Shown: one piece after another, positions 35,751 through 60,878 of the stretch
Layout of the letters: each line of letters starts with the position of its first letter
Numbering within the stretch: the stretch's first letter is position 1
Origin: Polytrichum commune
Taxonomy: Eukaryota > Streptophyta > Polytrichopsida > Polytrichales > Polytrichaceae
Reading direction: 5' to 3'
Assembly: GCA_950295325.1 (NCBI GenBank)
Contig: OX485809.1
Span: 36,089,081 to 36,153,080, forward strand
DNA length: 64,000 nucleotides
Position numbers and translations under genes: made by a program
Notes under the pieces: model-generated
Databases searched by the model: none
Told to the model about the DNA's origin: nothing
The model's input: only the letters and a program-made list of their open reading frames with translations

Positions 35751-35765
35751 TCTGCTCTGATACCA
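35751..35765 (-). promoter_or_regulatory. Primer-binding site, initiator-Met tRNA type
   Basis: The minus strand reads TGGTATCAGAGCAGA immediately after the 5' LTR, the canonical plant Copia match to the 3' end of initiator tRNA-Met. Confidence 0.95.
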
Positions 35766-41285: not shown

Positions 41286-41613
41286 ACAATTGTGACTCAA
41301 ATTTTTCATTTTTGGTTGTATTTCTGAGCTAGAATGGCCCAGTTATGAGAGCAAATGAGTGATACAAGTGTTTGAAAGCTTAGTTTGTCATTTCTTGCAA
41401 CCCTCAAGAAGATTTTGAGAGAAATCTTCCCATTTTTCTTTTGTTGTCTCTTTGTGTTTTCTTCAATTGTTGATGCTTGAATCTTGAGATTCCATTTGGT
41501 CTCAAGATTCTCAAGTCATATTTTTCTTGCTTGAAAATTGTGGAAGCAAAGTTTAATTTTTTAAACACAAACACAAACCAAATTCAAAATCCGATTTAGT
41601 TTTTTATTTTTTT

Positions 41614-41835
41614 TTGAGCTCCGGACGGATCCGGAGCTCACCGGACCCTCCTGGAGCTCCGGTTTTGGACACTGCGGCAGAAACCCGGGCCGGGGCGGGC
41701 GTGCGCAGGCCGGGCCGGGGGCGGGCGGGCGCAGGCCGGGCCCAGGCGGCAATGGAGCGGGCCAGGCGAGCGGGCGTCGGCCGGGCCCCACCGGCGGGCG
41801 GACGCCAGCCAAGCCTGGCTGGCTTGGCATTAAGG
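41614..41835 (+). other. GC-rich island in the Gypsy-B leader
   Basis: About 220 bases rich in GGGCGGGC and GCCGGGCC units inside otherwise AT-rich DNA, bordered by poly-T and T-rich runs. It begins with a GAGCTCCGG-type inverted repeat (CTCCGGACGGATCCGGAG). The composition differs sharply from the rest of the element. It may be a structured leader or foreign DNA picked up by the family. Confidence 0.6.
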
Positions 41836-42004
41836 TAAGCTTAGCTTACCTTTGTTTTTTTATTTTTTATTTTTTTATTTTTTTATTTAAACAAAAAAAT
41901 AAAACACTTATTTTTACTTTTTACTTTTACTTTTTTTACTTTTTAATATTTTTTTCACATTTTTACTTTCACCTTTCAAACTTGGCATCCAATTCTCACA
42001 AACT

Positions 42005-42290
42005 TTGAGGGTGAAATTTGGGGGCATACTAACTCCGAACGGAGTGAAATTTGAGCCTATCTTGTGTGAAATTTGCCAAGGAATCCAATGGTGTAATTGG
42101 ATTGTTGATTGGAATTCAAAATCATTGCTGAAATTATTAATTTCAACGCTGATTTTTGTTTTTGGGAGCAAATTAACTCCGAATGGAGTGAAATTTGAGC
42201 CTAATTTGTGTGAAATCTTCCTAGGAGTCCATTGGTGCACTTAGTTTGTTGATTGGAGTCCATAATCACCTTGGAAATGAGCCTTTTCAA
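42005..42290 (+). repeat. Duplicated ~165-bp unit in the Gypsy-B leader
   Basis: Two copies share GGGGGCATACTAACTCCGAA, CGGAGTGAAATTTGAGCCTA, TGTGTGAAAT and GATTGGA.TCCAAAATCA, the second starting near 42168. It lies just upstream of the Gag start. Confidence 0.65.
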
Positions 42291-42456
42291 CGCTGATTTT
42301 TCATTTTAATTACCAATCTCAAACCTTTGCACAATTTTGGAATTCTGGGGGCATAAACACTTGGCATTTGGCAAGGGATTGCCATTTAGATAGCCCGCAA
42401 CAGGTGCAGATTGCCATTACCTTGTAGATAGTTGCAGGTACTCAAGTGATTATTTT

Positions 42457-44676
42457 ATGGTGCAAACTAGGAGCCGATATTATCGATCTCCATCACCAGA
42501 TTACTTGGAGGACGTGCATACCACAAATCTTGAGCCAGAGGTAGATACCAACGAGGCTTTTGAGCCTATTTCGGCGTTGGACACTACTAGTAGGCTTCGG
42601 ATTTGGAGTGTCGGCACGTTCGACGAAATGGAGGACGATCGCCACAATTCAGTACGTGATCGGTTTTCAGGTCGAGCTGGGGGCATTTCCTTGCCCGATT
42701 GGAAACTCCGGTTTCGTACCTGGATTAAGGAGAAACGCCAAAGGTCTTCCAATTTCAATGATTGGTATGCCTTTGAACTTCTGCCTCAACATTTGGAGTA
42801 TGAGGGACTCCAAACTTATGAACGCTGGACAGAGGGTCATCAGCGACAACTTCGGGAGGTGGAGCAGTATTGGGAGGCTCGGGTTGAGCTCATTTCAGCC
42901 CTTAAGGATGGGGCGGTTGCTACCTTAGCTCCACCCACCTTAAAGGAGGAGGAATCGCCGGCGGAGTCTAAGGACACGGAACTGGCACTTGGGCCAATGG
43001 TGGCTAGCAGTAGCACGGCAACCCTTTCACGGGTGGCACGTGCTACACAGGCAGCATTGACGGTTGTTGGTCCACCACCTCCGTTTAATCCCCTTACTGA
43101 ATTTGTCGCACATTTGGAAGTGGAGTATGGTGGGTTTCGGCGAGACCAGATGCAGCGCATCCAGGATTTCCACCGAGAGAAGGATGATACTCCACGGACC
43201 ATGTATACGCGACTCGCGCGATTTGCTGTGGAGTCGGGAGGTGTTTTTGCTGAGAGTCAGCTTGTTAAAATCTTTTTGTCTAAGATTGACAAGCGGCTAC
43301 TTGAGTTGGCATCACCTCGGATTATCCTCGACTACGAGGGCCGAGCTACGCTTGCACAAGCGTTTGCCGTGGTTGAGAGATGTGATCGGGCTTTTTGCCA
43401 ACATGATGCCACGGATATGGTATCTTGGATGACAGAGAGTCCGAAACCAAGAAGAATTGTCACAGCTACTAGTAGTTTAGCTGAGACTCAACCCGTCAAG
43501 GAGCAAAAGATTTTGCATTGTTGGGGTTGTGGAGAAGCTGGTCATTCGAAGAATGATCCTTATTGTCCTAAGAAGAAGAAAACTCAGCCTTTGGGAAAAT
43601 TAAAACAAAAGATGGAACCAGTAAAGGCAGGGGACCATTCTAAGAAGAGACAATTGAAATGTAACCATTGTGGTGGCACTAATCACGATGTGGATCATTG
43701 TTTCCAACTTCATCCTGAGATGCGGCCTGCCAGTTATGTCACTGGAAAGTCTCCAAGGGAGCAAAGTCTTGAGGCTAAGGTGGCAGAGCTTGAGCAAAAG
43801 CTCAAATCTTCTGCATCTTTTGCTCAAATTTCTGAGCCGCATGTGGGTGGTGGCACCTCGGGTTCGGACATGTATATGTTTGGAGCAGCTGGAGAGGTGG
43901 TGGCGGCGGCGGCTTCTACTCGCTCACAAACATTGGCAGATGCGGTAGCTTCCACGAGTGGTGGTAGCAACGAGGTGCTACATCCTCGCCATGCCGGACC
44001 AGCTGATCAAATTGGTCAAGCACGTTTACCTCTTTTATTTGGATTGGTAGACACCACTGTTGTTGGGGCTAAAAACCCTGTACCTTTGAGAGATGGGGAT
44101 TCCATCTCGAAGGATGTTACGCAGGCATTGGCATATAAAATTCTCCATATGCCAATTTTCTCGGGTTCGGAGTTTATGGCTTCGGATTTCAAGCCTGCTG
44201 CAGTTTTTCATTTAGCTGGGAGAATGTTAGAAGGTAAGGCGGATTTGCCATCCCTTCAAGTATCCCAAGCTGTGGTTGACGTACCTGTGGCTGAGGAGGT
44301 GGAGGACTTAGCCAATTTGCGAGTGAGTCTTGCGGATGCGGCGATCATTGCTTTTGGTAAGCAAACTGATATTCCTCCAGCATCAATTTCAGCAGTGGAT
44401 ACGTCATTTTCGAATTATGCGTTGGAAGCGGCATATCTTGCAGATATTTTTGCAAGGCCTGCTCGCGAACGGCATAATTTGCAACCTGGAGTTGTACGGC
44501 TGATGAACGACAAATCTTTGTTTGTCATTTCACGCACGGATATGCCCACTATCCGTGCTACACCACTGAGAGTTATGATGGATTCCGGTGCTCAACCGGT
44601 TATGATTGGCAAAGGACTTGCTAACAATCTTGGATCCTTGTCCATTCACTATTGTGACTTCAGTAGGGGGCACTGA
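42457..44676 (+). pseudogene. Gypsy-B Gag and start of protease
   Basis: A 739-codon frame from the ATG at 42457. The capsid region lies around residues 60-310 (FNPLTEFVAHLEVEYGGFRR, MYTRLARFAVESGGVF). Two zinc knuckles follow, near residue 352 (CWGCGEAGHSKNDPYC, a longer H-to-C spacing) and near 401 (CNHCGGTNHDVDHC, typical CCHC). A short coiled-coil-like stretch (EAKVAELEQKLKS) follows. The protease motif MMDSGAQPVMIG starts near residue 705. The frame then shifts: the rest of the protease (YDILVGQQALYPLGF) is in another frame at 44606-44845. Gag alone looks intact; the protease does not. Confidence 0.88.
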
Positions 44677-44845
44677 ACGTGCAACAGGTTATACCAAGGC
44701 ACCTTTACGTTTGATTTTTCATGTGGGGGCAGGGCCTACTTACACTCATTTGTCAATGAAGTGTGTTGTTACTAATGCTACCAACTATGATATACTTGTT
44801 GGTCAGCAAGCTCTTTACCCACTTGGCTTTGGTTTGGATAATTGA
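44606..44845 (+). pseudogene. Gypsy-B protease, C-terminal part in a shifted frame
   Basis: This frame continues the protease begun at 44574 (DSGA) and carries the hydrophobic ILVGQQ motif equivalent to the second conserved retropepsin block. It ends at a TGA at 44843-44845; beyond it the same frame continues with coding character (TEEAWIRPGW), so this stop is a mutation rather than a natural end. Confidence 0.75.
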
Positions 44846-46279
44846 ACGGAAGAGGCATGGATTAGACCGGGATGGTCCACTGGAGATGGCAGGAAGGTAT
44901 TTATTCCCGTCACATTTGCAGCCACTGCTATGACTATGGTTGCGGAGGCAATGTTTGGTTGCAGCGGTTCAGTTGCAGATTTGCCTTGTGCTCCAGTTTT
45001 ATTGGAGGAAACAATGGACTACACTTGTAATGCGGCAGAACAACAATTTTTACCATCTTTTCAAATTCCTGCTTGACATTTCAAGGATCCACCTCCACCA
45101 TGGCGAACTCCTAAGGAGTTATCCGACCATTGTCAACACATTGTAGCGGATTTGGAGCTTGGAGAGGCACCTCCTACTTCATCCTCATTTTCTTTTGCTC
45201 AACCCATTCGTTGGCAACCATCACCTGAAGGTATTGTCCTTGTGGAGATCTTTGGAGGCATTGGCACAGGTTTGGCGGCAGTGTTGGAAGTTGGAATTAC
45301 AGTTTGGCGATATATTCATGTGGACAATGGGTATGCAGCCAACAGAGCCGTCTGACACCACATCCAACAATTGTTGTTGAGATACCCCACACAATTGTCA
45401 GCCTCTGCCATTCATGGATGTTGTGATCAACTTCCTCAAGATGTCACTATGATTAGTGATGAGGATTTGAGAAGGTTGGGCCACGTGGATTTGATTATTG
45501 CAGGATGGCCTTGTCAAGGCCATTCGCGGGCAAGAACTGGCCAGGGATTGGATGATCATAGGTCTAGTTTGTTTGCGGATTTGATGCGATTGACGCAATG
45601 GTGGTTTACCCACCAATCAACTCCGCCATGGTACATTTTCGAAAATGTACCATTATTGGGTGATACCCGGCACAAAGTGGTAAAGGATGGTGAGTACATT
45701 AACCAAATTCTGGGTACTCCAACATTTCTGGATGCTGCATCTTTGGGATCCTTTGCTCATCGGCCTCGTTGGTTTTGGACCAACTTGGTATCACCTCGGG
45801 TGCTTTCAGCGGCGATTGCCCGCATTCCCCGCCTTATGGATCGCAAGGTGGATGACATTTTAGACGATCATCGTGTTTCCTTGGCAGTTACCAATGATGA
45901 CACCTTGCCATTTGCATTAATTAACAAGGTGGGCATTCCGAGAGGTGTACTACCTACTTTTGTGACATATCCACAGTCTTTTGCATTTCGATCTCGTGGA
46001 CTTGGCATGGTTTGGGATTCAAAATCCCAAACTTATGAGGAGCCTACTGCAGATGAGCGGGAACGCGCCATGGGTTTTCTTACAGGTACCACGGCTGCTC
46101 ACGGGCTTCAGGAAGGTCAGAGACGTTTCCTATTGGTGCAACCTATGGATCTTAATAGCATTGTGTGGATAATTGGAATTTGTCTTGCTGCTCAACAACG
46201 TATGGATGACCAATTGCTTACTCTGAGGGCAGAGAACAATGGTCAGGGGGCAATGGAGCCGCATCCAAGGATCACATGA
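44846..46279 (+). pseudogene. C5 cytosine DNA methyltransferase domain carried by Gypsy-B
   Basis: The domain that transfers methyl groups from AdoMet to cytosine C5, here placed between protease and RT. Motif I is VEIFGGIGTG at 45242-45271. The catalytic motif IV is GWPCQGHS with Cys codon 45512-45514. Motif VI is FENV near 45640. HRPRWFWTNL near 45760 corresponds to motif VIII and resembles DNMT3/DRM proteins (HR.R.FWGN). The C-terminal ERERAMGF and EGQRRFLL are motifs IX-X. All key motifs survive, but TGA codons interrupt at 45074 and 45353-45355; the latter stands where CGA (Arg) would fit, and the frame is otherwise continuous from 45152 to 46279. The target-recognition part is short. 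Capture of C5 methyltransferases by LTR retrotransposons has been reported in charophyte algae and dinoflagellates; I assume a related event. DNMT3-like placement is by motif resemblance only. Confidence 0.88.
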
Positions 46280-46600
46280 GGGATTATTTCCTTTGAAACT
46301 TCATGTTGCGGAAGAGCTTTGAGCCCAACGTGTTTTTTCGGCTTTGGCCCAAGAGTTTGGGAAGTTGGAAGCCCATAAAATGTTTCCACTTCTATTTCTT
46401 GGTGATACTTCATATGTGGGTAGCTATTTAGCTACACAAACCGATTGTAGTGGAGAGGATACGCATTTGGATTCAAGTGCAGATGATGGGGGCAAAGGTG
46501 TTGCCCTCTCCACGGACTAGCAATCACAGGCTGTGCTGGCACCAAGTGGCAATCCTTCTATGAAGAAGGAAACCACGGAGTTGACGATTGGCCAATTGAA
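46280..46600 (+). other. Linker between methyltransferase and RT of Gypsy-B
   Basis: A shifted frame retains coding character (GLFPLKLHVAEEL, then a TGA, then AQRVFSALAQEFGKLEAHKM and SYVGSYLATQTDC). It breaks at TAG near 46518. This is probably the original connection to RT. Confidence 0.5.
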
Positions 46601-49057
46601 GTGGGGCCAAAGCTTACTGGTGCCGAAGCACGAAAGGTACGGGCATTTATTCGCTCTTACCGTAATTGTTTTGCCTTTAGTCTTCATGATCTTGAAGGAT
46701 ATAAAGGTAAACATGTTCGTATTCAACTCGAGGACGACCACCCTATTTTCAGACGGCCGTACAGACTTAGTACCTCTGAAAGGTTGGGTGTTCAAACTCG
46801 ATGTCAAGAGTTATTGGCAGCGGAATTGATTGAACTCTCCAATGGAGAATATGTTTGTGCCACGGTTATGCCGTCAAAGAAGGATATCTTTGGCAACTGG
46901 ACGGAAAAACGGATGTATGGTGATTATCGTCCAGTCAACCGCAAGACCAAGTCGGATTGATATCCAATGCCGATGCCGGAGGAGTTGTTTGATGCACTGG
47001 GATTTTCTAGAATCTTTAGCACTCTGGATTTGAGGTCTGGTTATCACCAATTACCTTTGTTGTTGGGTAATCGGGTGAAGACTGTATTTTGGGGAAATGA
47101 TAAAGATGGCAAGGATCAACTTTATCATTGGAAATTTCTGCCATTTGGTCTCAAGAATGCACCAGCTGAATTTCAGCGGGTGATGGATCAATTATTGGTT
47201 GGTTTGCCGTTTGTTAGATGTTACATTGATGATGTTATCATCTTTAGTAATAGTCCACATGATCATGTGAGACATTTGCAAGCGGTATTTGAACGACTTC
47301 AACGGTGGGGACTCCGTTTACATCATGGAAAATGTAAGTTTTTCCATGATGAATTGCCCTATTTAGGCCACATGATTGTTCATGGCGGTCTTGGTGTGCA
47401 ACAGGCGAAGGTGGATGTTTTGCACAAAATTCCTGCACCTAGTGATGTACCACGTCTTCGTGCATTTCTAAGATTGGCAAATTATTATATGAGGTTTGTC
47501 AAAAACTTTAGTTTGATTTCCAAACCTCTTACCATTCTCACGGGGAAAGACCAACCATGGATTTGGAGTCGGGAACAACAACATGCATTTGATACATTGA
47601 AGCAGAGGCTCGGTTCAGCGCCAGTGCTTCGACGCCCGGATGTGTCTAGAGCTTTTAAATTGCACACGGATTGGAGTGCAGTGGGATTGGGAGCGGTATT
47701 GACACAGAAAGATGAAGAGGGAAAGGAATATGTGGTGACTTATGCACATTTTCGACCTTATTTGTATGGGCAAAAGTTTACTTTGGTGACTGATCATCAG
47801 CCTTTAAAATGGCTTATGGAATCAGATAAGCTCACCGGGAAACTTGCTAGGTGGGCATTGTTACTTCAGGAATATGATTTTGAAGTTGTTCACCGAGCAG
47901 GAATTGCCAACTTGGATGCAGACGGATTGTCTCGCAATCCAAGTCCTTCGGATGAGGATTTAACTGGAGCCATGTGGCATGGAGATTGTGATCGTGAGGC
48001 AGTGTCGGGTTGGCATGCTGCCACATATCTCACAATGATGTCGGGATTGGCTGCTGAGATTCTTGTAGAGGAACAAGATGAGGAGGTTGATAAATCTCTC
48101 GTTGTTAGTGATGTGTGGGAAGACCAGGCGGTCTTGTACAAACTTCAACAAGGGATATTTCCTCTTGGATTATCTGCTATGGAGCGAGATAGAGTTAGTC
48201 ACCGGATAACAAGGTTTCGTTGGGCAAACAGCTTGTTATTTCGTGTGTGGCCGAACGGAACGAGGCGCATCGTTCCAAGGCCAGATCAAAGAGCTTCTTT
48301 GGTGCGGCAAGTGCACGAGGAGCTTGGACATTTTGGAGTGCGAAGGACGCACTCTATGTTGCGCAACCAATATTGGTGGACTGGTATGTATCAACAGGTT
48401 GCCACTTATGTTTCTCAGTGTGAAGTATGTGACCGGGTCAGGTCAAGTTTTAATACTTTGTCACCTCAACTTCAGCCTTTACCTATTATGGGCTTGGGAT
48501 ATCGTTGGTCTTTGGATTTTGCCGGACCGCTTACTATCACTCCACGTGGTTCCAAGTATGTGTTTGTGATGGTGGAGCATTTTAGTAAGTGGATTGAACT
48601 CGTGGCTCTTCCCCAAAATTCCTCAGAATTGGCGGCTATGGCATTTCTTGATCGAGTTTTGGCACGGTTTGGAGCACCTGCAGAGGTGTTGACGGATCAA
48701 GGAAGAGAATTCCTTCGATCTTTCGAGGCTTTATGTACCAAGGCTTTGATTGATCATCGGACAACTTCCAGAGATCACCCTGAGGCAGATGGCTTAGCTG
48801 AACGAGTTGTTCAGACGGTTAAGCGCGGTTTGCATAAGTATGGATTGCTTCATGGCAACCATCGCGATTGGGACTTGATGTTACCATGGATAGCAATGAG
48901 TTATCGTTTCAGCAGGCAAGCATCTTTGGCATTCTATAGTCCTTACCAACTCTTGTATGGACGGGAACCAATTTTACCTAGCTTGGTGCGAGAGAAATTG
49001 GCTCCCGTAGTAAACTTGGATGATCCAGATGTTTGGGCTCAATGTCTTCATGACTGA
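46601..49057 (+). pseudogene. Gypsy-B RT, RNase H and integrase, interrupted
   Basis: RT starts around GAEARKVRAFIRSYRNCFAF. A TGA at 46958-46960 replaces a likely CGA (KTKSD-R-YPMPMPEELF); the frame then continues unbroken to 49057. The RT active site is YIDD at 47222-47233. RNase H starts near 47656 (LHTDWSAVGLGAVL) with TDHQPLKWLM. Integrase has the HHCC zinc site (HEELGHFGVRRTH..CEVCDRVR) and the core WSLDFAGP, LTDQGREF and EADGLAERV, so D, D and E are present. The final TGA (HD-stop-AAFFQKAM) again fits CGA to TGA decay because the frame goes on. These would copy and insert the element if repaired. Confidence 0.92.
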
Positions 49058-49616
49058 GCAGCGTTCTTCCAAAAGGCCATGCCTATGGCTATGGAGAACT
49101 TAAATATTGCTCAACATTGTGATACATTACGGTATGCCCGGATCCGCAGTGGAGCTTATCGACCTCAGGTTCGTAGATTTTCCAAGGGGAATTATGTTTA
49201 CTTGCAACGGGAGGCGCCTACGACATTGGATGTCAAGGCTGGGCGCACGATTTTACGGGTAAAAGATTGTCTTGCCAAGTGGTATATTATTGCTTGAAGG
49301 CAAGGATGGACGGGAATGTCGTGAGCATTCAAAGAATTGTGCTCCATGTCACCTTCCCATCGACGGCTCTGTGCATCCCGAGTTGGCGGTTGTACCACAG
49401 GGTCTGCCTTGTTATGTTTGTGGAGAGAAGAAAGGAGCTGCAACAATGTTATTGTGCGACCAATGTCAACGTGGATGGCACATGGCATGTTTGACACCTC
49501 CCCTTTTATTCTTCCTTCTGGCAATTGGGTTTGTCCTCGTTGTCGGAAAGCCTCTAATTCCGTGGCCGTTAATGGTCATGATTGAGAATTTTGTGGATGT
49601 TTACCACATGTTTTAG
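49058..49616 (+). pseudogene. Gypsy-B C-terminal tail with PHD finger
   Basis: The frame continues after the stop (MPMAMENLNIAQHCDTLRYA), includes a GPY-like core (RRFSKGNYVYLQREAP) and shifts near 49265. A PHD-type C4HC3 finger follows: CYVCGEKKGAATMLLCDQCQ, RGWHMAC, and after one more frame shift GNWVCPRCRKAS (about 49410-49560). PHD fingers usually read histone H3 tails. In chromoviruses a chromodomain sits in this position, so the finger may play an equivalent targeting role; this is inference. Confidence 0.8.
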
Positions 49617-49908
49617 TGGTGAAGTTGTTATTTAGTTGGTTGGAAATTTTATGGAATTAAGACCACATTGAAAGAGTTATCCAAGAATTCAACATTAATT
49701 GTTGAAGGCGATTAAGGATGGGGCTCACATTGCACCCAGCCTACAGTTCTTGGATTACTTTGTCAATCACGAGTTTAATTCCTTCGATTACTACTACCCA
49801 ATTAAATATGTATAGATGTAGCAACAACTTCATCATGTTCAACAACTCTACCGATGAGTGTGTTTGTTCCTAGCCGATTGGAGGGGCTCCTTATCTGCTA
49901 GTGGGGGC

Positions 49909-50017
49909 ACTTGAAGAGGTGGTTGTTTAGCATTTTAGTTTGCTATTTTATTTTGCTAATTGATGTTGACAACGACACTCAATCTGTTGTGTTTAACGAT
50001 CTTAGTTTACACGACAG
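49909..50017 (+). repeat. 109-bp direct repeat, copy 1, before the 3' LTR
   Basis: ACTTGAAGAGGTGG to ACACGACAG, preceded by GTGGGGGC, the best polypurine-tract candidate of the element. It recurs exactly at 50455-50563. The 5' LTR has no counterpart. Confidence 0.9.
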
Positions 50018-50018
50018 C

Positions 50019-50460
50019 TGTCACGTGAGGTGACATCGGGGGCTAAGTTACGTCAATTTAGGAGTAAATGGACTCCATTAGGAGTCCATGTGTGTTGGGA
50101 TGAGTAACGGACTCCATTGGGAGTCCTAGTTAGTTGTTCATCCACTCCATAGATGAACTCCACATAGGATTGGGGTTGTATGGAGAGGAAGGCCTCTTGA
50201 CTTGCCATTGTTGTCAAGTCAAGTCTTGTGAGTGTGTTTTGAGAGAGAGAGAGAGAGCTTGTTGTTGCTTTCTCATGGCTATCGTGTAGTAGATTATGAG
50301 TAAAGCCTTTGCATTCTTTCTCCACCACTTGCACTCTTGGATTCTCCCTTCGTGGAGTGAGAGATAGCTTGACTCTTGTGTGTGAATTTCAGAGTTTCTT
50401 AAGCTTTGTAAGAAGACATTTTAGTTTCTTAAGCTTGAAGAGAGAAACCCTCATACTTGA
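50019..50460 (+). repeat. 3' LTR copy of Gypsy-B
   Basis: It matches 40842-41283 with one visible difference (AAGCTTGAAGAG against AAGCTTGGAGAG). Instead of the TGACA end it runs through a shared ACTTGA into the second 109-bp repeat. If the LTR is taken to include that repeat, it ends CGACA at 50562. Confidence 0.85.
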
Positions 50461-50599: not shown

Positions 50600-52840
50600 A
50601 TTGAGGGAGTTAGCTCGCGTGATCATGAGCGACACCATATGTAGCTTCAGGAGGAACTCCAAGCCAATAAGTGACCATGCAAAGGCTTGTGGAAGCATGA
50701 TTCATTGTGTGTTCCTTGCATTGGGAATGAGTGCAAGCATCAAAACTTGCTTACAAAAAAGTTTATTAGAGAAGTGGCCACAAAGGATTGTTGAATTCAT
50801 TGTTATTGGCAATTGGTGTTATAAAAGAAGATAAAAGTATTGAGAAGAAATGTGGCTTGGAGATTTCCACCTTAGATTCTCAAAAAAACTTGATGTTTAC
50901 CAGGAAATACATGTGAATGAGACGGGACGAAATGTGATCACGCTTGAGAGCATAGATGTGTGATGTACGGCCTAGTACATTATCCATAGTGTGTCTAAAG
51001 TGGAATTTTATAGACAAGCAACTTATGTTAAGAAAAGCCACCGGTGCCATAACCAAGAGAATTTGGGTTCAAAAAAACCTAGAAAACCATCATGACAAGC
51101 GATTGCTATTCTAGCAACCATCATTGTGCCTCTTGTTGATGCAATACCGTACAAAACATGTACACTCCAAACAAGGGAGAAGATCATTGAAAGGTTTTTC
51201 TCACGAGAACGAAATAACAATATTCTTGAAAGGTTCTTGTTGGATGTAAATGCGATTGGTGAAAGGTCGGTTTGGAGCCAAATTTTGTTGTTCAAATTGA
51301 ACACAATTAGGAAAGCAAACTTCAACAACTATATTATAGAAAGACATAGTGACAAGTTTGCTTGGTGTTCCAGATGCGAGACGTTAAAGCGCCCTCGAGA
51401 CGCACTTACAATTGGGACCAAGACTTACACTTCACATCAATTGAACTTTCAAAAGATGTGAACATGCAAGAGGTGCATTGTAATGATTATTACACAAATA
51501 GACCATTGTCCATCTCTAGGGTGTTGGAGGTCCTCACAATCATTCATGATGCCAAAATGGACCATGCCAAAACAACCTCATCATGTTTTGCACATCAAAT
51601 CAAGGCTACATATGGTTTCTTTAAGCTATTTGACTTTGTTACATGTGATATGATTCTCTCCAACATCTTCTAGCTAGTTTTTTGTTTTGTGGGGTTCCAC
51701 ACCTCTATTTCTTTGATTTAGTACTTAGGAGCATAGGCATGATTGATTTGGATTTCCTACTCAACAATAAGTCTTTGGGTTGTTCTTGTAGGGATGATTG
51801 TTCATGGCCATAGTAATGTCAAGTTTGCCCATTATGCTCTTGATTTATATCCAGTGGATTCAAACCACACCATTGGGTCATTTGCAAAGCTTTGTTAGAT
51901 CTTGAGAAAATGTCTATATACTCTTCAAAGTATTATGACGAACGACGGGTCAACACCTCTATATGAAGCGGTGTTGGATGGAAAAGATGTATGCTTGGAT
52001 TTATTGCCAAAATCTCCCAATGAGCCTTTATTTGTTAAAGAATTGTCTGTACTATGCAAGTCCAACTGGACAACTACACCTTGGACAATAAAAAGATTTG
52101 TGTTCGCCTATTTGTGTTTGTTGGTTGTGATGCAGGCATTTTCAAGGATGTGTTTATAATATTTCTTCTAGTAGGCCGCATGCACAATGATATTGACGCA
52201 TCTTTTTGGCAGGGGAGCATGAAGTTACATGAGGAGGATTTCCCACCAATCCCATTCTAAATGAAGTCATACATGGATTTGGACAATGTTCCCGCCATCC
52301 TAGATGTGATTAAGGAAGTGTTTGACTTCAAAACATTTATAGAACCATATCTTCAGAGTGGAGCTCATTGTTTGATTGGACATACAAAGGCTCAAACAAT
52401 TTTGATTTTATATGCGTGTTGATGGTATTCTAGCCATGCAATACAAGCTTTTGTGTGCGACGCAAGATTGGAACCTGCTAGAAGGTGTTCTTGTTTGGCA
52501 CGTTCACAACAAGGGTCAGACGATGATACTAGATGGGGAACCTAAACCCTGCAAACCAATACCTATGAAGAATGTGTAAGATATTATAAGCGTTATCAAT
52601 CTTTATACAATATTGGGGATATTTGCGGGTTGCAAATGTTGTTGGATCGTTTTGCCACCAATATGGAACTTGGGTAGGCTATTGGACTCATGCACGTTCT
52701 GCTTTGACGGCCTTCATCAAGATAGTCCCCTACTTTGAGACATGGTTTTTGGCCACAAAGTTATATGGATGTTTTTGCTTTTGAGGCTAGGCTTTTGGAT
52801 AATGGGGAGTTCGACAAGGATGACCATTACATTGGGCATG
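50600..52840 (+). pseudogene. DUF7869-like gene, 5' part, broken
   Basis: Several frames chain into one protein: FRRNSKPISDHAKACG, ERFLLDVNAIGERSVWSQIL, SDKFAWCSRCETLKRPRDAL, HDAKMDHAKTTSSCFAHQIK, GHSNVKFAHYALDLYPVDSN, VQLDNYTLDNKK, FLLVGRMHNDIDASF and DLDNVPAILDVIKEVFDFKT. The D..LDN and H.DIDASF motifs fit the RNase H-like fold of DUF7869 proteins, often suspected to be transposase-derived. A probable GT-AG intron spans 51645-51791 (donor ATGTGATA, acceptor CTTGTAG). At least four frame changes or stops are present. It ends at GEFDKDDHYIGHE, where the 8-kb transposon inserts; the tail resumes at 60868. The family name is from memory of its motifs. Confidence 0.6.
52830..52840. repeat. Target-site duplication, left copy
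   Basis: CATTGGGCATG, identical to 60868-60878 across the transposon. Confidence 0.85.
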
Positions 52841-52950
52841 AGGGAAGCTATCTTATGAGCGATGAGCAATGAGCGGTGAGCGGTGAGCAGTAACACATGA
52901 GCAATGAGCAGTAACACATGAGCAATGAGCAGTAACATATGAGCAATGAT
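52841..52950 (+). repeat. Left terminal inverted repeat and subterminal repeats
   Basis: GCTATCTTATGAGCGATGAG is followed by GAGCRRTGAGCGGTGAGC-type units matched in inverted form at 60805-60867. Three tandem 21-bp units (GAGCAATGAGCAGTAACACAT) follow at about 52889-52950. Confidence 0.88.
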
Positions 52951-53084
52951 TCCAAATTTAGTAAAGACATACGGGTTTAGGGTACACAACCAAAATTTTG
53001 ACAAATTAATTGCATATTTTCAATTGTAAATTGCCAATATTTTAAATGAAGCACAAGTGAAAGGGCCCTATTTCCATAGATCAT

Positions 53085-53330
53085 TTAAAACACTTTCAAT
53101 TCATTGCTGATTTTTATTATAATAATCCAAACCAATACATGTCATTTATTGACATCCTTATACATGTAGTTACAACCAACACTTGCACAACTACTCACAT
53201 TCCACAACACCATCAAGCTCAAGTAGGTGCATAACCTCATTATACGTACATGTAGGTGCCATAATTGTGAGCCACTCAAACTGCTCACGGGTTGAATTAA
53301 GGCCCAGAATCTACAAATGAAAGGAAATTA
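53085..53330 (-). pseudogene. Duplicated last segment of the SWIM-type gene
   Basis: The minus strand encodes APTYTYNEVMHLLELDGVVE followed by CE and a stop, nearly the same as the end of the main gene at 53767 (APTYTYNEVMRLLELAGIVE). The 3'-flanking sequence is also duplicated (TTGCTGATTTTTATTATAA). It is probably an old tandem duplication of the 3' end. Confidence 0.75.
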
Positions 53331-53384
53331 GATATTAGAAATAGTCAATACGTAGGTAACTACTAGGTTTTGAGACATCCGCCT

Positions 53385-53465
53385 GTGGATGCGAGTTGTG
53401 TAAGAGACTGGTATTACATCTGTATCAACCCGGGTTCGAATCCGGTTGGTTACATTGACTGGTGC
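53385..53465 (+). other. tRNA-like segment with a perfect B box
   Basis: GGGTTCGAATCCGG inside a ~75-bp stretch resembles the 3' half of a tRNA, but the T-stem pairs poorly and no acceptor stem or A box is clear. It is likely a tRNA-derived SINE fragment lying between the two copies of the gene end. Not a functional tRNA. Confidence 0.35.
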
Positions 53466-53766
53466 TATCCCAAATTGAGCTAATGATAAAGCAGGAATAA
53501 TTTATAGGCGGATACCAAGAAGACATTACTACGCGGATGTGCGTAGAATCTTCTCAATTATTTTTTATTTTTAGAAACTTGTTATTATTTATCCATGTCA
53601 ATCAATCAAACCGCTCACGGTTGGGTCGTAGTCTAAATAGAAATGAAGTTACTGAATCATTTGAAATACTTCCAGCCCATTGCTGATTTTTATTATAAAA
53701 ATCCAAACAAAAACATGTCATATTTTGACATTCAAATATATGGTACTTAATAAACCATTTGCAATA

Positions 53767-55131
53767 CTACTCACACTCTACAATACCAGCAAGTTCAAGT
53801 AGTCGCATGACCTCGTTATAGGTATATGTAGGTGCATGAATGAACTTGTCACTCTCGTAATCCACCTTGCACAAAAATCTAAATACATAATAAAGATGTC
53901 TACAATACACCCATTTTCCTTTCTTTCCCAATGCATGAGAGGACATTTTCGTGAAATCCGGGCATGTCCAATGCGGGATGTCGCCAATTGTGACATGGTA
54001 GGTGATATCCTGCTTGGAGACAATGTTGATTATCACTCCAAAGCCCGGATATGGAATGGCAGTGACTCCAACCACATAGTAACCCTCTATGAGTCCGGCG
54101 CTCTCCCATTTGTTTTTGTGAACCGCTAGCGGTGCTGTTGGATTACGACGCACTGTCTTCTCAAACCTGAATGTAGGGTGGGCGTCCGGGTTTGGTGGCA
54201 TAGAAAAATGCGAGCGAAGGATGGGGAGAGTTGCGATTGTTGAAAGCCTACGACGAAGGGACAATGCCTCCCTCTGCTGTAGTTGAAATCCAACATCTTC
54301 AAGTGCCAAAACCTCCTCTCGCAATAGATTGGTACCTATCTTCACCGGCCACGTGTTGGGTACTATAGGCCAGTCCAACACATATTTCTTCTTACTGCCA
54401 CTCACACAACGTTTCATGTCGTCAGGGCAAAACCAAAATTCATACTCCACATTGTTGGGAGAGCGAAATTCCTTCCTGAGCCCTTTGTATGTTGGAGCAG
54501 GTGTGCCATGTTTCCCAGTCCCGACTTTGGCATTGCACATAGTCCATGTGATGGCCTGCAGTGCCCAACATCGTTTGGCTGAGTTGGGTGGTAATCTTAC
54601 AATGTGCCAGTTAGAAGCAAGACAATCTGTCTCTAACACGGATGTAGTATGAGCCACACCATGAATTGCAGAATTCAACGATTCCTCTATGCGTTGACGA
54701 GTTGCTCGGGTGTTGGGATGAGGAATGGAATAGTTCACTTTGTCGGGTCGATGAGAATCACAATCAGCACCCGGTGGTAGGTTGAGTTTGCGTTTGGTGG
54801 AACTAAAGAGCTCTGACCCTTCCAATGCACAATCTCTAGTGTTGACGTCTTCTGGCCCTGGATAAGACTTCATGGCATCGGCCAACATTTTTGGATCTCC
54901 ACACATGGCAGCCGCTTTGAGTTTCAAGTATGCCGAATCAGGACCTTTACCATCAGACCCCCCTTTCAACCATGTCCGGTAATTTGCAATTTGCATGAAG
55001 GCACGGATCATGTCGTCCACTGTAGCTTCATATAAACAAGTCATCTTGTTGCCGGACTGTTGGAGCCATTTGTTGTGTACAGTCTCTGCAAGATTGCATG
55101 TTGGCATTTCCGCACGCTCTTCTATTGTCAT
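53767..55131 (-). CDS. SWIM-type zinc-finger protein of the 8-kb transposon
   Basis: A continuous 454-codon frame. Near the N-terminus, EMPTCNLAETVHNKWLQQSG resembles the region around the last acidic residue of DDE transposases, where an E is followed by an H/N helix. The C-terminus has a SWIM-like pattern, TCPDFTKMSSHALGKKGKW followed by VYCRHLYYVF. SWIM is CxC...CxH; here the first Cys is Trp (HWTC), so zinc binding may be lost. A TATA-like TTATATAT lies about 50 bases upstream of the ATG, arguing that the gene is complete as it stands. Alternatively, TTCATAG just before the ATG is an intron end and upstream transposase exons are missing. It is divergent from the methyltransferase-like gene. 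Likely role: DNA binding or transposition accessory; inferred. Confidence 0.7.
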   Translation of the reverse strand: MTIEERAEMPTCNLAETVHNKWLQQSGNKMTCLYEATVDDMIRAFMQIANYRTWLKGGSDGKGPDSAYLKLKAAAMCGDPKMLADAMKSYPGPEDVNTRDCALEGSELFSSTKRKLNLPPGADCDSHRPDKVNYSIPHPNTRATRQRIEESLNSAIHGVAHTTSVLETDCLASNWHIVRLPPNSAKRCWALQAITWTMCNAKVGTGKHGTPAPTYKGLRKEFRSPNNVEYEFWFCPDDMKRCVSGSKKKYVLDWPIVPNTWPVKIGTNLLREEVLALEDVGFQLQQREALSLRRRLSTIATLPILRSHFSMPPNPDAHPTFRFEKTVRRNPTAPLAVHKNKWESAGLIEGYYVVGVTAIPYPGFGVIINIVSKQDITYHVTIGDIPHWTCPDFTKMSSHALGKKGKWVYCRHLYYVFRFLCKVDYESDKFIHAPTYTYNEVMRLLELAGIVECE

Positions 55132-55176
55132 ATCCTATGAACAACACACAAATACAAGGATAAGACAAACATAAGA

Positions 55177-55189
55177 TAGATTATATATC
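55177..55189 (-). promoter_or_regulatory. TATA-like box of the SWIM-type gene
   Basis: GATTATATATCTA lies about 50 bases upstream of the ATG and just inside the first GGGTCG palindrome pair. Confidence 0.45.
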
Positions 55190-55193
55190 TAGG

Positions 55194-55244
55194 TTTGGGT
55201 CGTTCAACCCAAAATGGCTCCACGTTTGGGTCGAACGACCCAAA
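55194..55244. repeat. GGGTCG palindrome pair (array A1)
   Basis: Two palindromes of type TTTGGGTCGAACGACCCAAA at 55194-55213 (one mismatch) and 55225-55244 (perfect), centre spacing about 31 bp. The same palindrome forms array A2 at 56531-56680. Confidence 0.9.
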
Positions 55245-55256
55245 CTGCCTACTTGG

Positions 55257-55735
55257 GAGGCGAGAAGTTGGGAGGTAAAACCCTGTACGTTAACGCACAG
55301 GGTTTATAAGAACAACTTAGGAGGCAAAAAGTTGGAAGGCGAAACCCTGTGCGTTAACGCACAGGGTTTGTAAGAACAACTTAGGAAGGCCAAAGTTGGG
55401 AGGAGAAACCCTGTGCGTTAACGCATAGGGTTTGTAAGCGCAACTTAGTAAGGCCAAAAGTTGGGAGGAGAAACCCTGTGCGTTAACGCACAGGGTTTAT
55501 AAACGCAACTTAGGAAGGCCAAAGTTGGGAGGCGAAACCATGTGCGTTAACGCACAGGGTTGGTAAGCGCAACTTAGGAAGCCCAAAGTTGGGAGGAGAA
55601 ACCCTGTGCGTTAACGCACAGGCTTTGTAAGCGCAACTTAGGAAGGCCAAAGTTGGGAGGTAAAACCCTGTGCGTTAACGCACAGGGTTTGTAAGAGCAA
55701 TTTAGGAAGGCCAAAATTTGGGAAGTAAAATGACT
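55257..55735. repeat. GTTAAC palindrome array (B1), seven units
   Basis: Seven palindromes around TGTGCGTTAACGCACA begin at 55281, 55345, 55409, 55474, 55538, 55602 and 55666, a nearly exact 64-bp period. The sequence between them is also conserved (AACTTAGGAAGGCCAAAGTT). Each core contains two CpGs. Mismatches are few and mostly single-base. Confidence 0.95.
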
Positions 55736-56165
55736 AGGAGAGCCTAAAATTAAAACAAATATCTATTGTATAAATTTAAATCGATGTTCAGAACATAGGA
55801 GCAAAAAAACTATTGAAAACGAGGTTAGAATGCAAGAAATGAGAAATATGACTACTCAAGTATTCATGCAATACGTTATAGGAGCTAGAAAATGACACAA
55901 AATAGCATAAATTTTTTTTTGCCCCGAAACCCAAAATCTACGAGGTGGCCCAAAACAAGGAAATAGATAGAAGAATGAGAAAAGAAAATCATTTCAAACC
56001 AAAACAAAATATGAGAAGAATTTGTAGCTACGGAGATTTAGATAATATAGCATATTTTTGTTTTGTTTTTAGACCCCATTAGCATTTTGTCCAGATTTTA
56101 CAAGTTTTGGCAAATCTACAAATTCCAGACAAAAAAAAAAGTTTTTTTTCAAATTCACGTCTTGG
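55736..56165. other. Spacer between the palindrome arrays
   Basis: About 430 bases of AT-rich DNA with homopolymer A and T runs and no palindromes. I see no gene. Confidence 0.6.
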
Positions 56166-56330
56166 CCCTATGCGTTAACGCACAGGGCCTATGCGCTAAC
56201 GCACAGGCCTTATGCGCTAACGCACAGGGTCTATGCGCTAACGCATAGTGGCTAGAAAGTTGCCAGCGCAAACCCTGTGCGTTAACGCACAAGGTCTGCA
56301 CTGGCAACTTTCTAGCCACTATGCGGGGCC
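56166..56330. repeat. GTTAAC/GCTAAC palindrome cluster (B2) with a hairpin
   Basis: Five sites of type TATGCGYTAACGCACAGG lie close together at 56168-56290. The fifth sits in the loop of a perfect 25-bp inverted repeat (56242-56266 and 56301-56325, arms starting CGCATAGTGGCTAG). The site type is shared with array B1. Confidence 0.9.
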
Positions 56331-56530
56331 ACGAAGAGCCACGCTAAATATGGTTGCAGGGACAAGTAATATAAATTGCCACAACCCCAAAGCATTCAGT
56401 CTTTTTTCTCTCCTCCGTCGGATCTGAGCTCATCGCTGCAAGCTCTCTCATTTACAGGTGTAGTACAAGGTTTGTTTGCACTTTCGTGATGACTGGGTAA
56501 TTGCGCATAATCAGGCGTAAATTGCGGACA

Positions 56531-56680
56531 GTTTGGGTCGTTCGACCCAAACTGTGAGCATGGTTTGGGTCGAACGACCCAAACTGTGTGCATGGTTTGG
56601 GTCGACCGACCCAAACTGTGTGCCTGGTTTGGCTCGAACGACCCAAACTGTGTGCATGGTTTGGGTCGTTCGAGCCAAAC
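56531..56680. repeat. GGGTCG palindrome array (A2), five units
   Basis: Five palindromes around GGGTCGAACGACCC or GGGTCGTTCGACCC at 56531, 56563, 56595, 56627 and 56659, an exact 32-bp period with TGTGTGCATG between. Two units have one arm altered to GGCTCG or CGAGCC. Confidence 0.95.
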
Positions 56681-56767
56681 GTCGCGTCCAACTTTGTTAG
56701 ACCTGTAGTTGGACGCACAGGGTCTGGCCTTGTAATTTTGGGGTGAGCGGCCACCCTAATCGTACAC

Positions 56768-56774
56768 TATTTAA
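56768..56774 (+). promoter_or_regulatory. TATA-like box of the methyltransferase-like gene
   Basis: TATTTAA lies about 90 bases downstream of array A2 and 180 bases upstream of the first candidate ATG. A probable 5'-leader intron follows (donor near 56830, acceptor TTTTAG ending 56936). Confidence 0.4.
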
Positions 56775-56945
56775 AGGTGCAAATGGCTGTGTCTAGAATA
56801 AATTTTGTCATTCTTCCCTGTGTTCGTGGTATTCTGTTGTTTTTGTTGTTGCTATTGCTGTTGTTTTTGTAATGTTATTGCTAATGTGTTGCTACTTATT
56901 TTGAAATATTTATGAAACTTATTTCATTTGTTTTAGGACCAATCA

Positions 56946-59900
56946 ATGGATTTGGAAAGAACGACTCCTATTTCTACTGATAATGATTCTACAATGCATT
57001 AACTTAAGTTTGTCCATCTCAACAAGTTCATCATCATCATGACATATTGTCAAATCTTCATAATAAGAAAAAGAAAAAAATAAATGAATCCCTTGATGAT
57101 TTTGACTCGGATGAAAATAATGATGGTGACAATAAAAACTTATCAAGAGAAAGTGTGGGAGCTTACGAACAAACGAAAGGTCAATTCCACTTTCACAATT
57201 TCTTCAATCCGTGCTGGACCTAATGCTCGCTTGCGTGTACCTTTATGTCGCATGGTTCCTATGCCGATTGTGCGTCCTGCTTTGAATGGTGACATTACTA
57301 AATTGGAGGCTGGTTTTTTCAATGGTTATCGTGATGGTGACCGTGTGTTTTATATATCGGCTACCGATTCTAAGGGAAACTTTCAATTCGTGGATGATGA
57401 GGTTCGCGCATCTTGGAGCCCAAACTGGGCTCAAGCCAATGCCCTGTTTGAATTTCAATTGGATACAGATTTGTCATTGACGTCATACAGAAACAAGATG
57501 TTTTTTATATGGGATGGAAATCACAGATTTCTTGCTTGGGAAAATTATATTGACCGCGTATATACCGAAGATTATGAACGTCATGTCTTTGTGGATTCTA
57601 TCATTTTGGCGCCCGAGCCTGACGACATTCCAAGTTTGTTGACTGCTATGCATGACATCAACAAGTAATGTTCTTACCTATTTTTTTACACTTATTTCTA
57701 ATTTATATTTGTTTTCCAAATTATATCATCATGAATCTAATTAATTTAATATTTCTTTTAGGTCAACCGAAAATTCTCACGTATCCACCAATTTGGTGCA
57801 TACTTTATATCGGATGCAAAGTATTGGCACCAAGCCTTTGACTTCCTTCAGAAAGCAACTGGATCCAAAGAGTTATAAACGATGTGAGGAGAAGTCCGTC
57901 GAAACTTGGTATTCTTTGACACGACCAATTTTTTTGGATTACATGTACAGTGTAGGTTTTTCTACGATTGCTAATATGTGCCTTATGTTTATTCACCTCT
58001 ATTTTACATTACACTTATATGAACTTATAAATATTGACTTTTGTTTGATTTTTCAGCAAGAACTTGCTGAGGCTAGCGATATTGCTCTCAACCAATATAA
58101 TGAAACTCATCCTCTTGAACGGACATCAAACGGAGTTTCAAAAGCAATGTCCGCAGCTGTCAACAAAAAACGTGCAATGTTATCTTCTAGTTTTACGAAA
58201 CAACTAGCGATTGCCGATATCAACCTTACCTCTGTTTTCCTTGAAGAAGTTAAGCACCATTGGGGTTCATTTTCGGTGCCTGAAATGCTACAAGAGAAAC
58301 TTCATCGTGTTGCTGTCAATAATGTGGATGCAGAAGTCAAAGTTGGATGGCTCAAGCTTTGGAATGGCAATAGATTTGACAAAGATGCATTGCATTTCCC
58401 GAAATCGCCCCTCTTTGATTCTGCACTTGATGATTGGTTATCAAAGTCTACATATTGGGCACAGTTGGAAAAAAAGACTATCGAAGAGCTTCAAAATATT
58501 CTTTCATCTCCTCTTCAGTTGCCTGCAGATGTGCTTACTCTCTCCGAGTATATCCAAACCTGGAAGTTTGCGGCTTTCAATTCAATATTCTATCGTGAAT
58601 TCCAAAGCGGAAAACTTAAAAAACACAACGGTTGGGATGAGCAACCTAATATTGATCTTGCTATGAAACGTGTATTATACAGGTATTACCTAATCTTATT
58701 ATTTTTTTGATTTTTTTGATTCTATTTGTCAAATTGTCATGGAATATTTGACTTACAATATTTTTGTGTGTAGGTATTTTCGATATGTTTTGATTCCACA
58801 TAAATGCGTTATAGGGGAACCTCGTTTTTTCCCAAATTGGCGTGACACTGGTGCAGGAGATTCATGCATGTTCACTACTGAGATTTGTTTGGATTGGTCA
58901 CTCCCACACTATGAGGATTGTGGTTGGTATTTTGATTGTCCTAAGGATGCATGTCCGTCAAGTGAGAAGATAATATGTCAGATAAATGATGCTAAAAATG
59001 TGGATCCTCGTGATACTGCAATTTTGCAAGCATAAATTGTGCAGCTTAAACTTAGAGAGCCAGAACCAAAAGAGAGAAAACGTCGTAAGAGGAAACATGT
59101 TCCTGAAACCAAAATACAAGATCAATCTTGCGCCAACGAATGAATCACCTATGACGCTATTCATCGTGCGCCAACGAATGTTTTAAGAAAATAGTTATTC
59201 ATACTGAATAACTTTCTCACGCTCTCTTTTGCTCGATCTACTGCTGTCAAGAACAAGTCTGAAGGGGTTGAAGTAGGCCCTCCTGAGTGGATCCAATGGC
59301 TGACATTTCTTGAAAACGTAAGTATTATTGTGTTTGGTATTTTCTGTAATGTTCTTACTTTCATTTGGATTTTATTTTGTGTCTTATATTGTGATATGTT
59401 GTGGTATTTCAGTTCAAAGACAATCGCGAATTTCATGTCATGGGAAGTCCGACTCCATTTGCCGTTGACTTGGTTTTTTTGCAATTTCCCGACGGTCTTG
59501 ACTTCAACCTCTCCAATAGACCTGCTGAAATTCCTCTTTGGAATAAATATGACAAGAACTGGATGGTTGCAACAATGTCCTTGTGCAAGTCCATCTTGTC
59601 TGATGATGGCGTCCTCATAGTATTTTGTGTTATCGATATGCAAACCAAGAAGGTTTTGAATTCAACCTTACACAACGGTAACATGAAAGGTCTTAGGACT
59701 TTTATTTGCCTCAATTCGTACATGGTGTTCAAGGATCCAGAGTCTCCAACCTACACCGTAAGTATAACACATCACAATTGTTTCTATTTAATTATTTTGG
59801 TGTTATTTGCATTGTATATAGTTTTAATACAATTTATATTTTTTTGTAGACTCCGGCATTTATGGCTCATGTCTTGGTAAGGGATTTTACTACCACAAAA

Positions 59901-60670
59901 TCTACGAGACAACCAAACTCCACTTTTTTTGGCACTGGATTGAAAAGCAAAAATTTGCTTTTCAATTTTGTGGATGAAAAAACCATGCTTCTTCAAAAAT
60001 CGGGAAGACCTTAGAGGGGGCCATATAAAAAATCGCCGCGTTTTTTTTTCAAGATCTTATTGAATTGTTTATACCATCGAATGGACGCGTTGTTGATTTG
60101 ACATGTTCCACTGGAGCTTCTATCCTAGCAACATGCGCATGTGGCAGACATCTTCTTGCATTTGAGGGTGATAATGACATGTTTGAGCACATATTGAAAC
60201 CGCTTTTGGAAAACGTTTTGAAAGAGGGGTCATCTAAGGAGAATATACAAGATCTCACAAAAGAAGATGATAATCTCTCAGATGAGGAGATGCTTGAATT
60301 TGAGTGTGAGTAAGTTTTAATACAATAAATTTTTATTCAATTCATTCGTTTCATTCAATTCATTGGTTCATTTTGATTTCTTCACATTATTTACATGTTT
60401 CATCGATTTGATTTCAGGAATACGATTGGAAAGAGGACATGTCTCCCGTTTTGGGCACATAGACAATTCCTACGAAGTCCAAGCCGTAGCCCGCGTCTCC
60501 CATCATATGCCGAGAATGTTGCAATTGCAATGTTGAATCTTGAAGATTCGGATCCAAATGAAGAATCTTGCTATATTTCCAAAATCAATTCGCAATGCAA
60601 AGGTGCTCGAATATATATAGATGACGAGGCAAAAGATAGTTTCATGTCTAGTGCTACTACTGATGAATAA
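56946..60670 (+). pseudogene. Spliced gene resembling a beta-class N4/N6 DNA methyltransferase
   Basis: Exon ends fit GT-AG rules: ...57664, 57762-57951, 58057-58682, 58774-(after 59035), ...59317, 59413-59757, 59850-60309, 60418-60670. The N-terminal half has an acidic start and unrecognised domains (LEAGFFNGYRDGDRVFYISA). The C-terminal half reads AVDLVFLQFPDGLDF, resembling motif IV (DPPY) in context but with QFPD; then ILSDDGVLIVFC; then LIELFIPSNGRVVDLTCSTG, SILATCACGRHLLAFEGD, resembling motif X and motif I (DPF.GSG). Motif IV before motif I is the beta-class order of N6-adenine or N4-cytosine DNA methyltransferases. Damage: TAA at 57000 after the first ATG, a frame change near 57175, TAA at 59033, TAG at 60012, and a frame shift at a nine-T run (60041-60049). 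The altered motif IV makes catalysis doubtful even in an intact relative. Confidence 0.6.
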
Positions 60671-60804
60671 ATTTTTGGACTTCATGTTGTTTATCCTTCT
60701 CAACCCTCTTATTACTAAACCCTAAAATCATCATTTTTAAGGCCACAATTCCACGGTTATAGGATATTGGTGGCCCTATTACCAAAATTTTCATCTTCCT
60801 CACT

Positions 60805-60867
60805 GCTCATAAGTTACCGCTCATCGCTCACCGCTCATTGCTCACCGCTCATAAGATAGCACTCCCC
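60805..60867 (-). repeat. Right terminal inverted repeat
   Basis: Read on the minus strand: GGGGAGTGCTATCTTATGAG, then GGTGAGCAATGAGC and GGTGAGCGATGAGCGGTAAC. It is the inverted partner of 52841-52905. Confidence 0.88.
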
Positions 60868-60878
60868 CATTGGGCATG
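60868..60878. repeat. Target-site duplication, right copy
   Basis: CATTGGGCATG, identical to 52830-52840. Confidence 0.85.

Follow-up and report, generated by a model that had tools for sequence, protein, structure and literature searches.

A multicopy inverted-repeat transposon of Polytrichum commune with a SWIM-type transposase and a divergent, methyltransferase-like accessory gene

The 64,000 nucleotides of Polytrichum commune DNA analyzed here as one window (contig OX485809.1, positions 36,089,081 to 36,153,080) contain an element of about 8 kb that runs from GAGGGAAG to CACTCCCC (52840-60867) and belongs to a multicopy family of inverted-repeat transposons with 10-bp duplications, a DDE-like transposase with a SWIM finger, and a divergent, selectively maintained accessory gene. 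Two genes in divergent orientation were found inside it (Table 1): the open reading frame (ORF) on the minus strand (53767-55134) is open, and the gene on the plus strand (56946-60670), hereafter the plus gene, is broken in exons 1, 4, and 6 in this copy and open in others. The inverted arms of the element (52847-52908 and 60799-60860) are 62 nt long and 90% complementary, and their alignment scored 94; 1000 shuffles scored no higher than 33, and up to 2000 random pairs from the window no higher than 36. Both the divergent gene pair and the inverted termini of about 60 bp had been described in an earlier note, made from the letters of this stretch alone, and both stand. The same note reported exact 11-bp flanking repeats and a host frame interrupted on both sides. 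An exact 11-bp match was indeed present (at 52830 and 60868), but the duplication proper is 10 bp, since 11 of the 12 insertions outside the window had perfect 10-bp duplications and the remaining one had 9 bp; the 11th base coincides by chance with the first G of the element. With the window included, the duplication was 10 bp in 12/13 copies with both ends and 9 bp in the other. The interrupted host frame was not recovered, as the joined flanks yielded just a 57-aa open stretch between stops.

The genome searched comprised 407.8 Mb in 64 contigs, and the seven contigs that supplied copies sum to about 406 Mb. When the 455-aa minus ORF was used as the query, 3354 first-look candidates gave 93 scored matches with an identity of 89-100%; 92 of these span residues 1-455 and 59, by our own count, are stop-free. 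Twenty copies were fetched, of which seven were extended to full length, eight others at the right end only, and five stayed unextended. They were picked from the stop-free, top-scoring matches to this ORF, which is exon 2 of the transposase gene, and the omega (nonsynonymous to synonymous rate ratio) and intactness values of exon 2 are biased for this reason; the plus gene played no part in the choice. The left terminus was recognized within 3 mismatches in 20/20 fetched copies, a plus-gene homologue was present on the same side in all of them (a distant one in L119), and a 9-10-bp duplication flanked every one of the 13 both-ended copies. The right terminus of L104, L106, and L112 was not found in the fetched stretch, the L106 match ending about 92 bp short. 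The possibility that two unrelated elements were nested by chance, each supplying one terminus, has next to no probability and was rejected, with nothing found in its favor, because termini, plus gene, and duplications recur together. The complete element is about 11.7 kb, and the window copy is an internal deletion derivative that has lost about 3.3 kb. A third small ORF of 97 codons, basic in composition, lies between the two genes of L103 (6301-6591); it was unbroken in 18 of 19 copies, with a mean omega of 0.46.

Table 1. Features of the element in the window (positions count from the first letter of the window).
Feature	Position	Strand	Remark
Left target-site duplication	52830..52839	no strand	CATTGGGCAT (10 bp)
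Left terminal inverted repeat and adjoining tandem units	52840..52949	+	21-bp units with TGAGCNN heptamers
Transposase exon 2	53767..55134	-	455 aa, open; putative Glu helix close to its start, SWIM region at its end
SWIM finger	53896..53970	-	CTC...CKH in most copies, WTC...CRH in the window
Putative catalytic Glu helix	55072..55098	-	CNLAETVHN; motif reading
Palindrome B sites	55193..55245	no strand	GTTTGGGTCG-NN-CGACCCAAAC; transposase intron 1 in complete copies
Approximate internal deletion point	55247..55251	no strand	transposase exon 1 and small basic ORF (about 3.3 kb in other copies) gone
Palindrome A array	55285..55690	no strand	CCCTGTGCGTTAACGCACAGGG; 64-bp period
Second palindrome A array	56167..56298	no strand	21-bp period plus one site
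Palindrome B array	56531..56680	no strand	32-bp period; precedes the start codon of the plus gene
Plus gene exon 1	56946..57664	+	ParB-like motifs; frame broken in window
Plus gene exon 2	57762..57951	+	
Plus gene exon 3	58057..58682	+	
Plus gene exon 4	58774..59317	+	frame broken in window
Plus gene exon 5	59413..59757	+	motif IV region, QFPDG
Plus gene exon 6	59850..60309	+	methyltransferase motifs X-I-II; frame broken in window
Plus gene exon 7	60418..60670	+	
Right terminal inverted repeat	60799..60867	-	
Right target-site duplication	60868..60877	no strand	CATTGGGCAT (10 bp)

The minus gene of complete copies encodes a transposase in two exons, with a predicted protein of 1167 aa in L103, and the DDE-like exon 1 that these copies carry is deleted in the window copy. 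Splicing is predicted, and the transposase splice acceptor is inferred, as the start of exon 2 occurs a second time within intron 1. By motif reading, the L103 protein contains D532, D598, CLFH at 627, E729, and SWIM at 1101; most copies retain the second Asp, CLFH, and Glu motifs, and a few have changes or a stop in them. All four ligand positions of the SWIM motif, CTC-x20-CKH, are kept in 19/21 copies. The window copy has lost the first Cys, a mutation that hid the finger from a regular-expression search there; the SWIM-type gene claimed in the earlier note holds for the family. The Pfam SWIM model PF04434 matched a piece of the protein with E=0.005 (16.7 bits, cut-off 19.6) and the whole protein with E=0.1. 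Mean omega among copies was 0.40 for exon 1 (n=20) and 0.16 for exon 2 (n=21), and the comparison of L103 with L111 gave 0.37 and 0.09, respectively. A pattern search of viral contigs with both exons gave no match. Near the 3' end of this gene, a stretch at about 53370-53570 of the window contains a tRNA-like B-box (GGTTCGAATCC), possibly from a short interspersed nuclear element, and is flanked by copies of the 3' end in tandem, two in number and about 80-83% alike.

Mutator-like elements (MULEs) have target duplications of 8-11 bp, often 9; terminal inverted repeats are usual and SWIM fingers common, neither being universal, and their DDE transposase carries a C(2)H motif between the second D and the E. 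The present family has a 10-bp duplication, 62-nt inverted arms, and SWIM positions that are kept in most copies. Given the long termini, the duplication of 10 bp, the C(2)H motif, and the SWIM finger at the C-terminus, the element looks MULE-like and not KDZ, by motif reading and termini and not by a profile (compare PMC6446971). The KDZ identity was rejected by the 10-bp duplication, against 7-8 bp, and by the Pfam search of the transposase, in which no KDZ model matched.

The plus gene of L103 has seven exons with GT-AG junctions and encodes 1076 aa. Five copies could be spliced; in three of them (L103, L106, and L111) the gene is open and the transposase exons are unbroken too, so that both genes are unbroken in 3/7 extended copies. 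The gene is broken in L105 and L107, and those of L104 and L112, for which splicing could not be completed, stand outside the five. Mean omega for exons 1-6 was 0.18, 0.07, 0.20, 0.29, 0.30, and 0.38 (n=18, 16, 8, 7, 7, and 6). Between L103 and L111, omega was 0.14 over exons 1-6 (p=2.5e-37), 0.11 over exons 1-2, and 0.26 over exons 5-6, which encode the methyltransferase-like part (p=3.3e-3). The plus gene is under strong purifying selection. The comparison of L103 with L112 did not fit a uniform picture, with 0.72 over plus exons 3-4 (p=0.37), and transposase exon 1 gave 0.73 (p=0.27); the high values of L112 are consistent with decay, because this copy contains stops and frame breaks. Along the plus gene, synonymous divergence between L103 and L111 dropped from 0.39 to 0.06, suggesting recombination between copies. 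MULEs often carry fragments of host genes (PMC6446971), and the plus gene could be such a captured passenger of the Pack-MULE type, functionless for the element. This is very improbable, as the gene is open in 3/5 spliced copies, omega is 0.14, and divergent homologues adjoin related termini; we rejected it on selection and intactness. A pattern search of a collection of genome contigs with plus exon 1 returned 50 pattern matches, with no relative among them.

The C-terminus of the plus protein reads as a permuted N4/N6 DNA-methyltransferase-like domain with an altered motif IV (the METHYLTRANSFERASE domain). About 700 residues precede it, and the order of the motifs is permuted, with the catalytic half (IV) first and X-I-II after it. 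A profile of 80 phage N4/N6 methyltransferases, partly circular because a tblastn hit of the query served as its seed, placed the frame at 60029-60310 first of the 1509 frames of the window (E=1.8e-5, next 0.072). A diverse 12-member profile, taken from homologues of the 80-member seed and thus less circular without being fully independent, also placed it first (E=9.3e-4, next 0.83). The intact protein scored 26.1 bits with the 12-member and 24.2 bits with the 80-member profile, and the maxima in 5000 shuffles of the window read-through were 4.7 and 8.8 bits. Moreover, exon 6 matched PHROG DNA-methyltransferase models (E=1.3e-5), and PF01555 aligned at residues 774-953 (model positions 30-218 of 221, E=0.02). 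The PF01555 scores, 15.3 and 23.7 bits with the divergent family X (below) included, lie under the curated cut-off of 26.7; the Pfam searches of both proteins gave weak matches, to PF01555 and SWIM, under their cut-offs. When the methyltransferase read-through was compared with phages by tblastn, six records were returned (E 2-8), five of them, from three phages, annotated as methylases and one unannotated. Searches of the PDB with phmmer yielded weak matches to unrelated proteins or no match. The methyltransferase-like gene of the earlier note was borne out by the scan of the 1509 frames.

The N-terminal region contains RVPLCRMVPMPIVRP and WDGNHRF, i.e., (D/N)GNHR and VRP motifs, and is ParB-like by motif alone. 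Structure prediction of this region by itself was uninformative (mean predicted local distance difference test score of 32), and the one match of this piece to plasmids by tblastn was irrelevant.

Next to similar transposases, very different plus genes were found. In nine copies whose exon 2 is 89-91% identical to that of the window, stretches of about 2.3 kb were read at the expected place of the plus gene. One (L139) has a close plus gene, five (L138, L140, L141, L142, and L145) have matches at 22-43%, L143 matches in the methyltransferase part at 33-40%, and L137 and L144 had no plus-gene match within the stretch read. Two divergent families could be assembled from these and further loci. 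Family X (L147, L142, and L146) has a colinear plus homologue with GNHR, DIPDG as motif IV, and GTG in motif I; its methyltransferase match reached 23.6 bits, against at most 7.6 in 5000 shuffles, and PF01555 gave E=5.2e-5. Family Y (L143 and L148) has DLPEG and weaker profile matches, of 9.0 and 8.3 bits; a matched stretch contains an in-frame stop. At the right, both families reach a terminus that is related to the one of the main family. A transposase exon of about 90% identity beside such different plus genes points to module exchange or very fast divergence. In L119 the transposase exons are 94% and 96% identical in DNA to those of L103, and the first two plus exons match at just 42% and 64%, so that modules may have been exchanged in this copy as well. 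In family X, an ORF upstream of the plus gene (L147 3-530) contains a kinase-like HCDLSFTNILF and matched the RIO domain below its cut-off (E=0.039); it is perhaps another cargo gene.

The DPP[YFW] tetrapeptide of motif IV and the residues of motif I have roles in methyltransferases. Of the 13 alignable copies of the main family, 12 have QFPDG as motif IV and the other has QFPNG, and motif I is DLTCSTGAS in 6/6 copies compared. The catalytic pattern (D/N/S)PP(Y/F/W) is absent from the three families read, which have QFPD, DIPD, and DLPE. As motif IV is non-canonical, a DNA-modification-like protein may here mean one that binds and does not catalyze, and from its motifs the accessory protein is probably non-catalytic. 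An active, if unusual, N4/N6 methyltransferase would mark the DNA of the element with N4-methylcytosine (4mC) or N6-methyladenine (6mA) as permissive or as protected from 5-methylcytosine (5mC). The profile matches in the main family and in X, the selection on exons 5-6, the motif IV Asp and motif I GTG retained in X, and a 2025 paper that links 6mA to permissive chromatin in eukaryotes (PMC12695648) all speak for such activity. We consider it unlikely, since the aromatic residue of DPP[YFW] is replaced by an acidic one (Asn in one copy) in all three families, and the main family also has neither the Asp nor the usual glycine pattern of motif I.

The noncoding DNA of the element contains arrays of two palindromes, A and B, which occupy intron 1 of the transposase gene, the leader of the plus gene, and the DNA separating the two genes; their chance expectation in the window is near zero. 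Spacings in the window, listed with one weak A site excluded, were mostly 21, 31-32, and 64-65 bp, near whole helical turns. On sites found by pattern with up to 4 mismatches, the B arms were 96-97% conserved and their flanks 61-65%, and two separate B arrays shared consensus arms at 20/20 positions and flanks at 9/16. A reading of the A and B arrays as one symmetrical divergent promoter was rejected, as the B array on the minus side belongs to transposase intron 1 and the apparent symmetry in the window results from the internal deletion. Beyond the right end of L103, six B-like palindrome matches with 78-79-bp spacing were observed outside the element in L122 (about 3050-3443), perhaps belonging to another element with a similar motif. 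The arrays also bear on whether the plus gene encodes a transposition cofactor, with a role like that of mudrB or MutB in assembly or integration and not in anti-silencing. Its constant place beside the transposase exon in the 20 fetched copies would fit a cofactor, as would the existence of MULEs with second ORFs, among which mudrB is apparently needed for integration and MutB is DNA-binding (PMC6446971). We regard this as unlikely, because the plus gene diverges far more than transposase exon 2, unlike a tightly co-fitted partner, and the arrays lie in intron, leader, and intergenic DNA and not at the ends.

Collectively, these data lead us to propose, with a confidence that falls just short of an even chance, a MULE-like element with a fast-diverging, probably non-catalytic accessory protein that would use a methyltransferase fold for DNA binding in a VANC-like, anti-silencing role. 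The transposase would cut and paste the element, and the accessory protein would bind noncoding sites in the element that encodes it, which in the main family would be the arrays of palindromes A and B, the fold possibly serving for DNA or S-adenosylmethionine binding and not for methylation. Binding would keep the promoters of the element active in the face of silencing by the host, a role that VANC plays in VANDAL elements; we know of no methyltransferase fold in VANC. Accessory modules would diverge fast or be exchanged among elements whose transposase exon is about 90% identical, and their divergence would give lineage-specific self-recognition. In a bolder reading, possible though well short of even, a pseudo-methyltransferase with a ParB-like region would represent a new class of self-recognition factor encoded by transposons, a cassette exchanged among MULE-like elements and co-diverging with palindrome arrays in introns, leaders, and intergenic DNA, with a role in sequence-specific anti-silencing or in self-marking other than by 5mC. 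The analogy with VANC draws on its targets, which are tandem repeats in noncoding DNA with rapid divergence (PMC10398659).

Several points weigh against the proposal of a non-catalytic, VANC-like accessory protein. VANC is likened here by description and not by sequence, the Pfam search matched no MULE model to the transposase, and it gave no ParB or sulfiredoxin match to the plus protein, whose ParB-like assignment comes from motifs only. A methyltransferase with an altered motif IV may still be active. Families X and Y are single elements by position, an inference, as their left ends and the DNA between transposase and plus gene were read in part; palindromes A and B were not found in the fetched parts of X (7.3 kb) and Y (4.8 kb), a partial absence. 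Helical phasing is not general, since other copies also have sites spaced 34, 44, and 56 bp apart, and the case is weaker for A, whose sites have a 22-bp core in common and also share 16/20 flank positions. The arrays could instead serve host factors or the transposase.

Other mobile elements lie in the same window. A gypsy-like long terminal repeat (LTR) element at 40842-50460 has LTRs of 442 bp that are 99.8% identical, and its ORF at 45356-46279 matched the C5 cytosine DNA methylase model PF00145 (E=4.4e-12), making it the second methyltransferase-bearing mobile element in the window. Other young-looking LTR elements were found at 1-9988 and 30838-35948; one has identical 1031-bp repeats around a 2086-aa ORF, and one is copia-like, with repeats of about 187 bp that are 98.9% identical.

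Known transposon cargo includes TET/JBP, C5 DNA methyltransferases (DNMTs), SET, and VANC-type proteins, and a DNA transposon whose N4/N6-methyltransferase-like partner is maintained by selection, diverges like a cassette, and has candidate cognate arrays would extend the sources of such tools. No recognizable description of such a gene in a MULE appeared in the titles and abstract beginnings returned by searches of open-licence literature. The finding raises the question of whether a methyltransferase fold has been turned into a sequence-specific anti-silencing factor or whether a transposon makes 4mC or 6mA in this genome, and a conserved gene beside the transposase, with kinship to bacterial DNA methyltransferases, suggests that the element makes its own tool for DNA marks or silencing. 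Both functional questions are testable, as 3/7 extended copies have both genes unbroken. The earlier note's idea of a transposon lineage with its own DNA-modification-like partner is supported in this form, without the KDZ likeness and with a motif IV that is non-canonical in every family read. Fungal KDZ and other DNA transposons do carry TET/JBP genes, and their partner gene likewise belongs to a family of DNA-modification enzymes, but this partner is a dioxygenase, and duplications are 7 bp in Kyakuja and 8 bp in Zisupton and Dileera, against 10 bp here (PMC12730594, in whose main text the word SWIM was not found). Retrotransposons of Symbiodinium and Klebsormidium with captured C5 DNMTs are likewise mobile elements with a gene of the DNA-methyltransferase family (PMC5890265); theirs is of the C5 type, whereas ours is a permuted N4/N6-type domain in a DNA transposon. 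The permuted (beta-class) N4/N6 methyltransferases of phages resemble it in profile matches and in the order IV, then X-I-II, at the C-terminus, and differ from the present protein, with its altered motifs IV and I and its long preceding region, encoded by an intron-containing transposon gene. Second ORFs are known from other MULEs, as with mudrB, MutB, and SET in Phytophthora, although the protein families differ (PMC6446971, PMC12730594). The VANDAL elements of Arabidopsis with VANC share a MULE-like build with a SWIM-type transposase, an accessory protein, noncoding tandem-repeat targets, and rapid divergence (PMC10398659, PMC6446971), and the present element is set apart from them by its clear inverted termini, 10-bp duplication, and palindromic sites.

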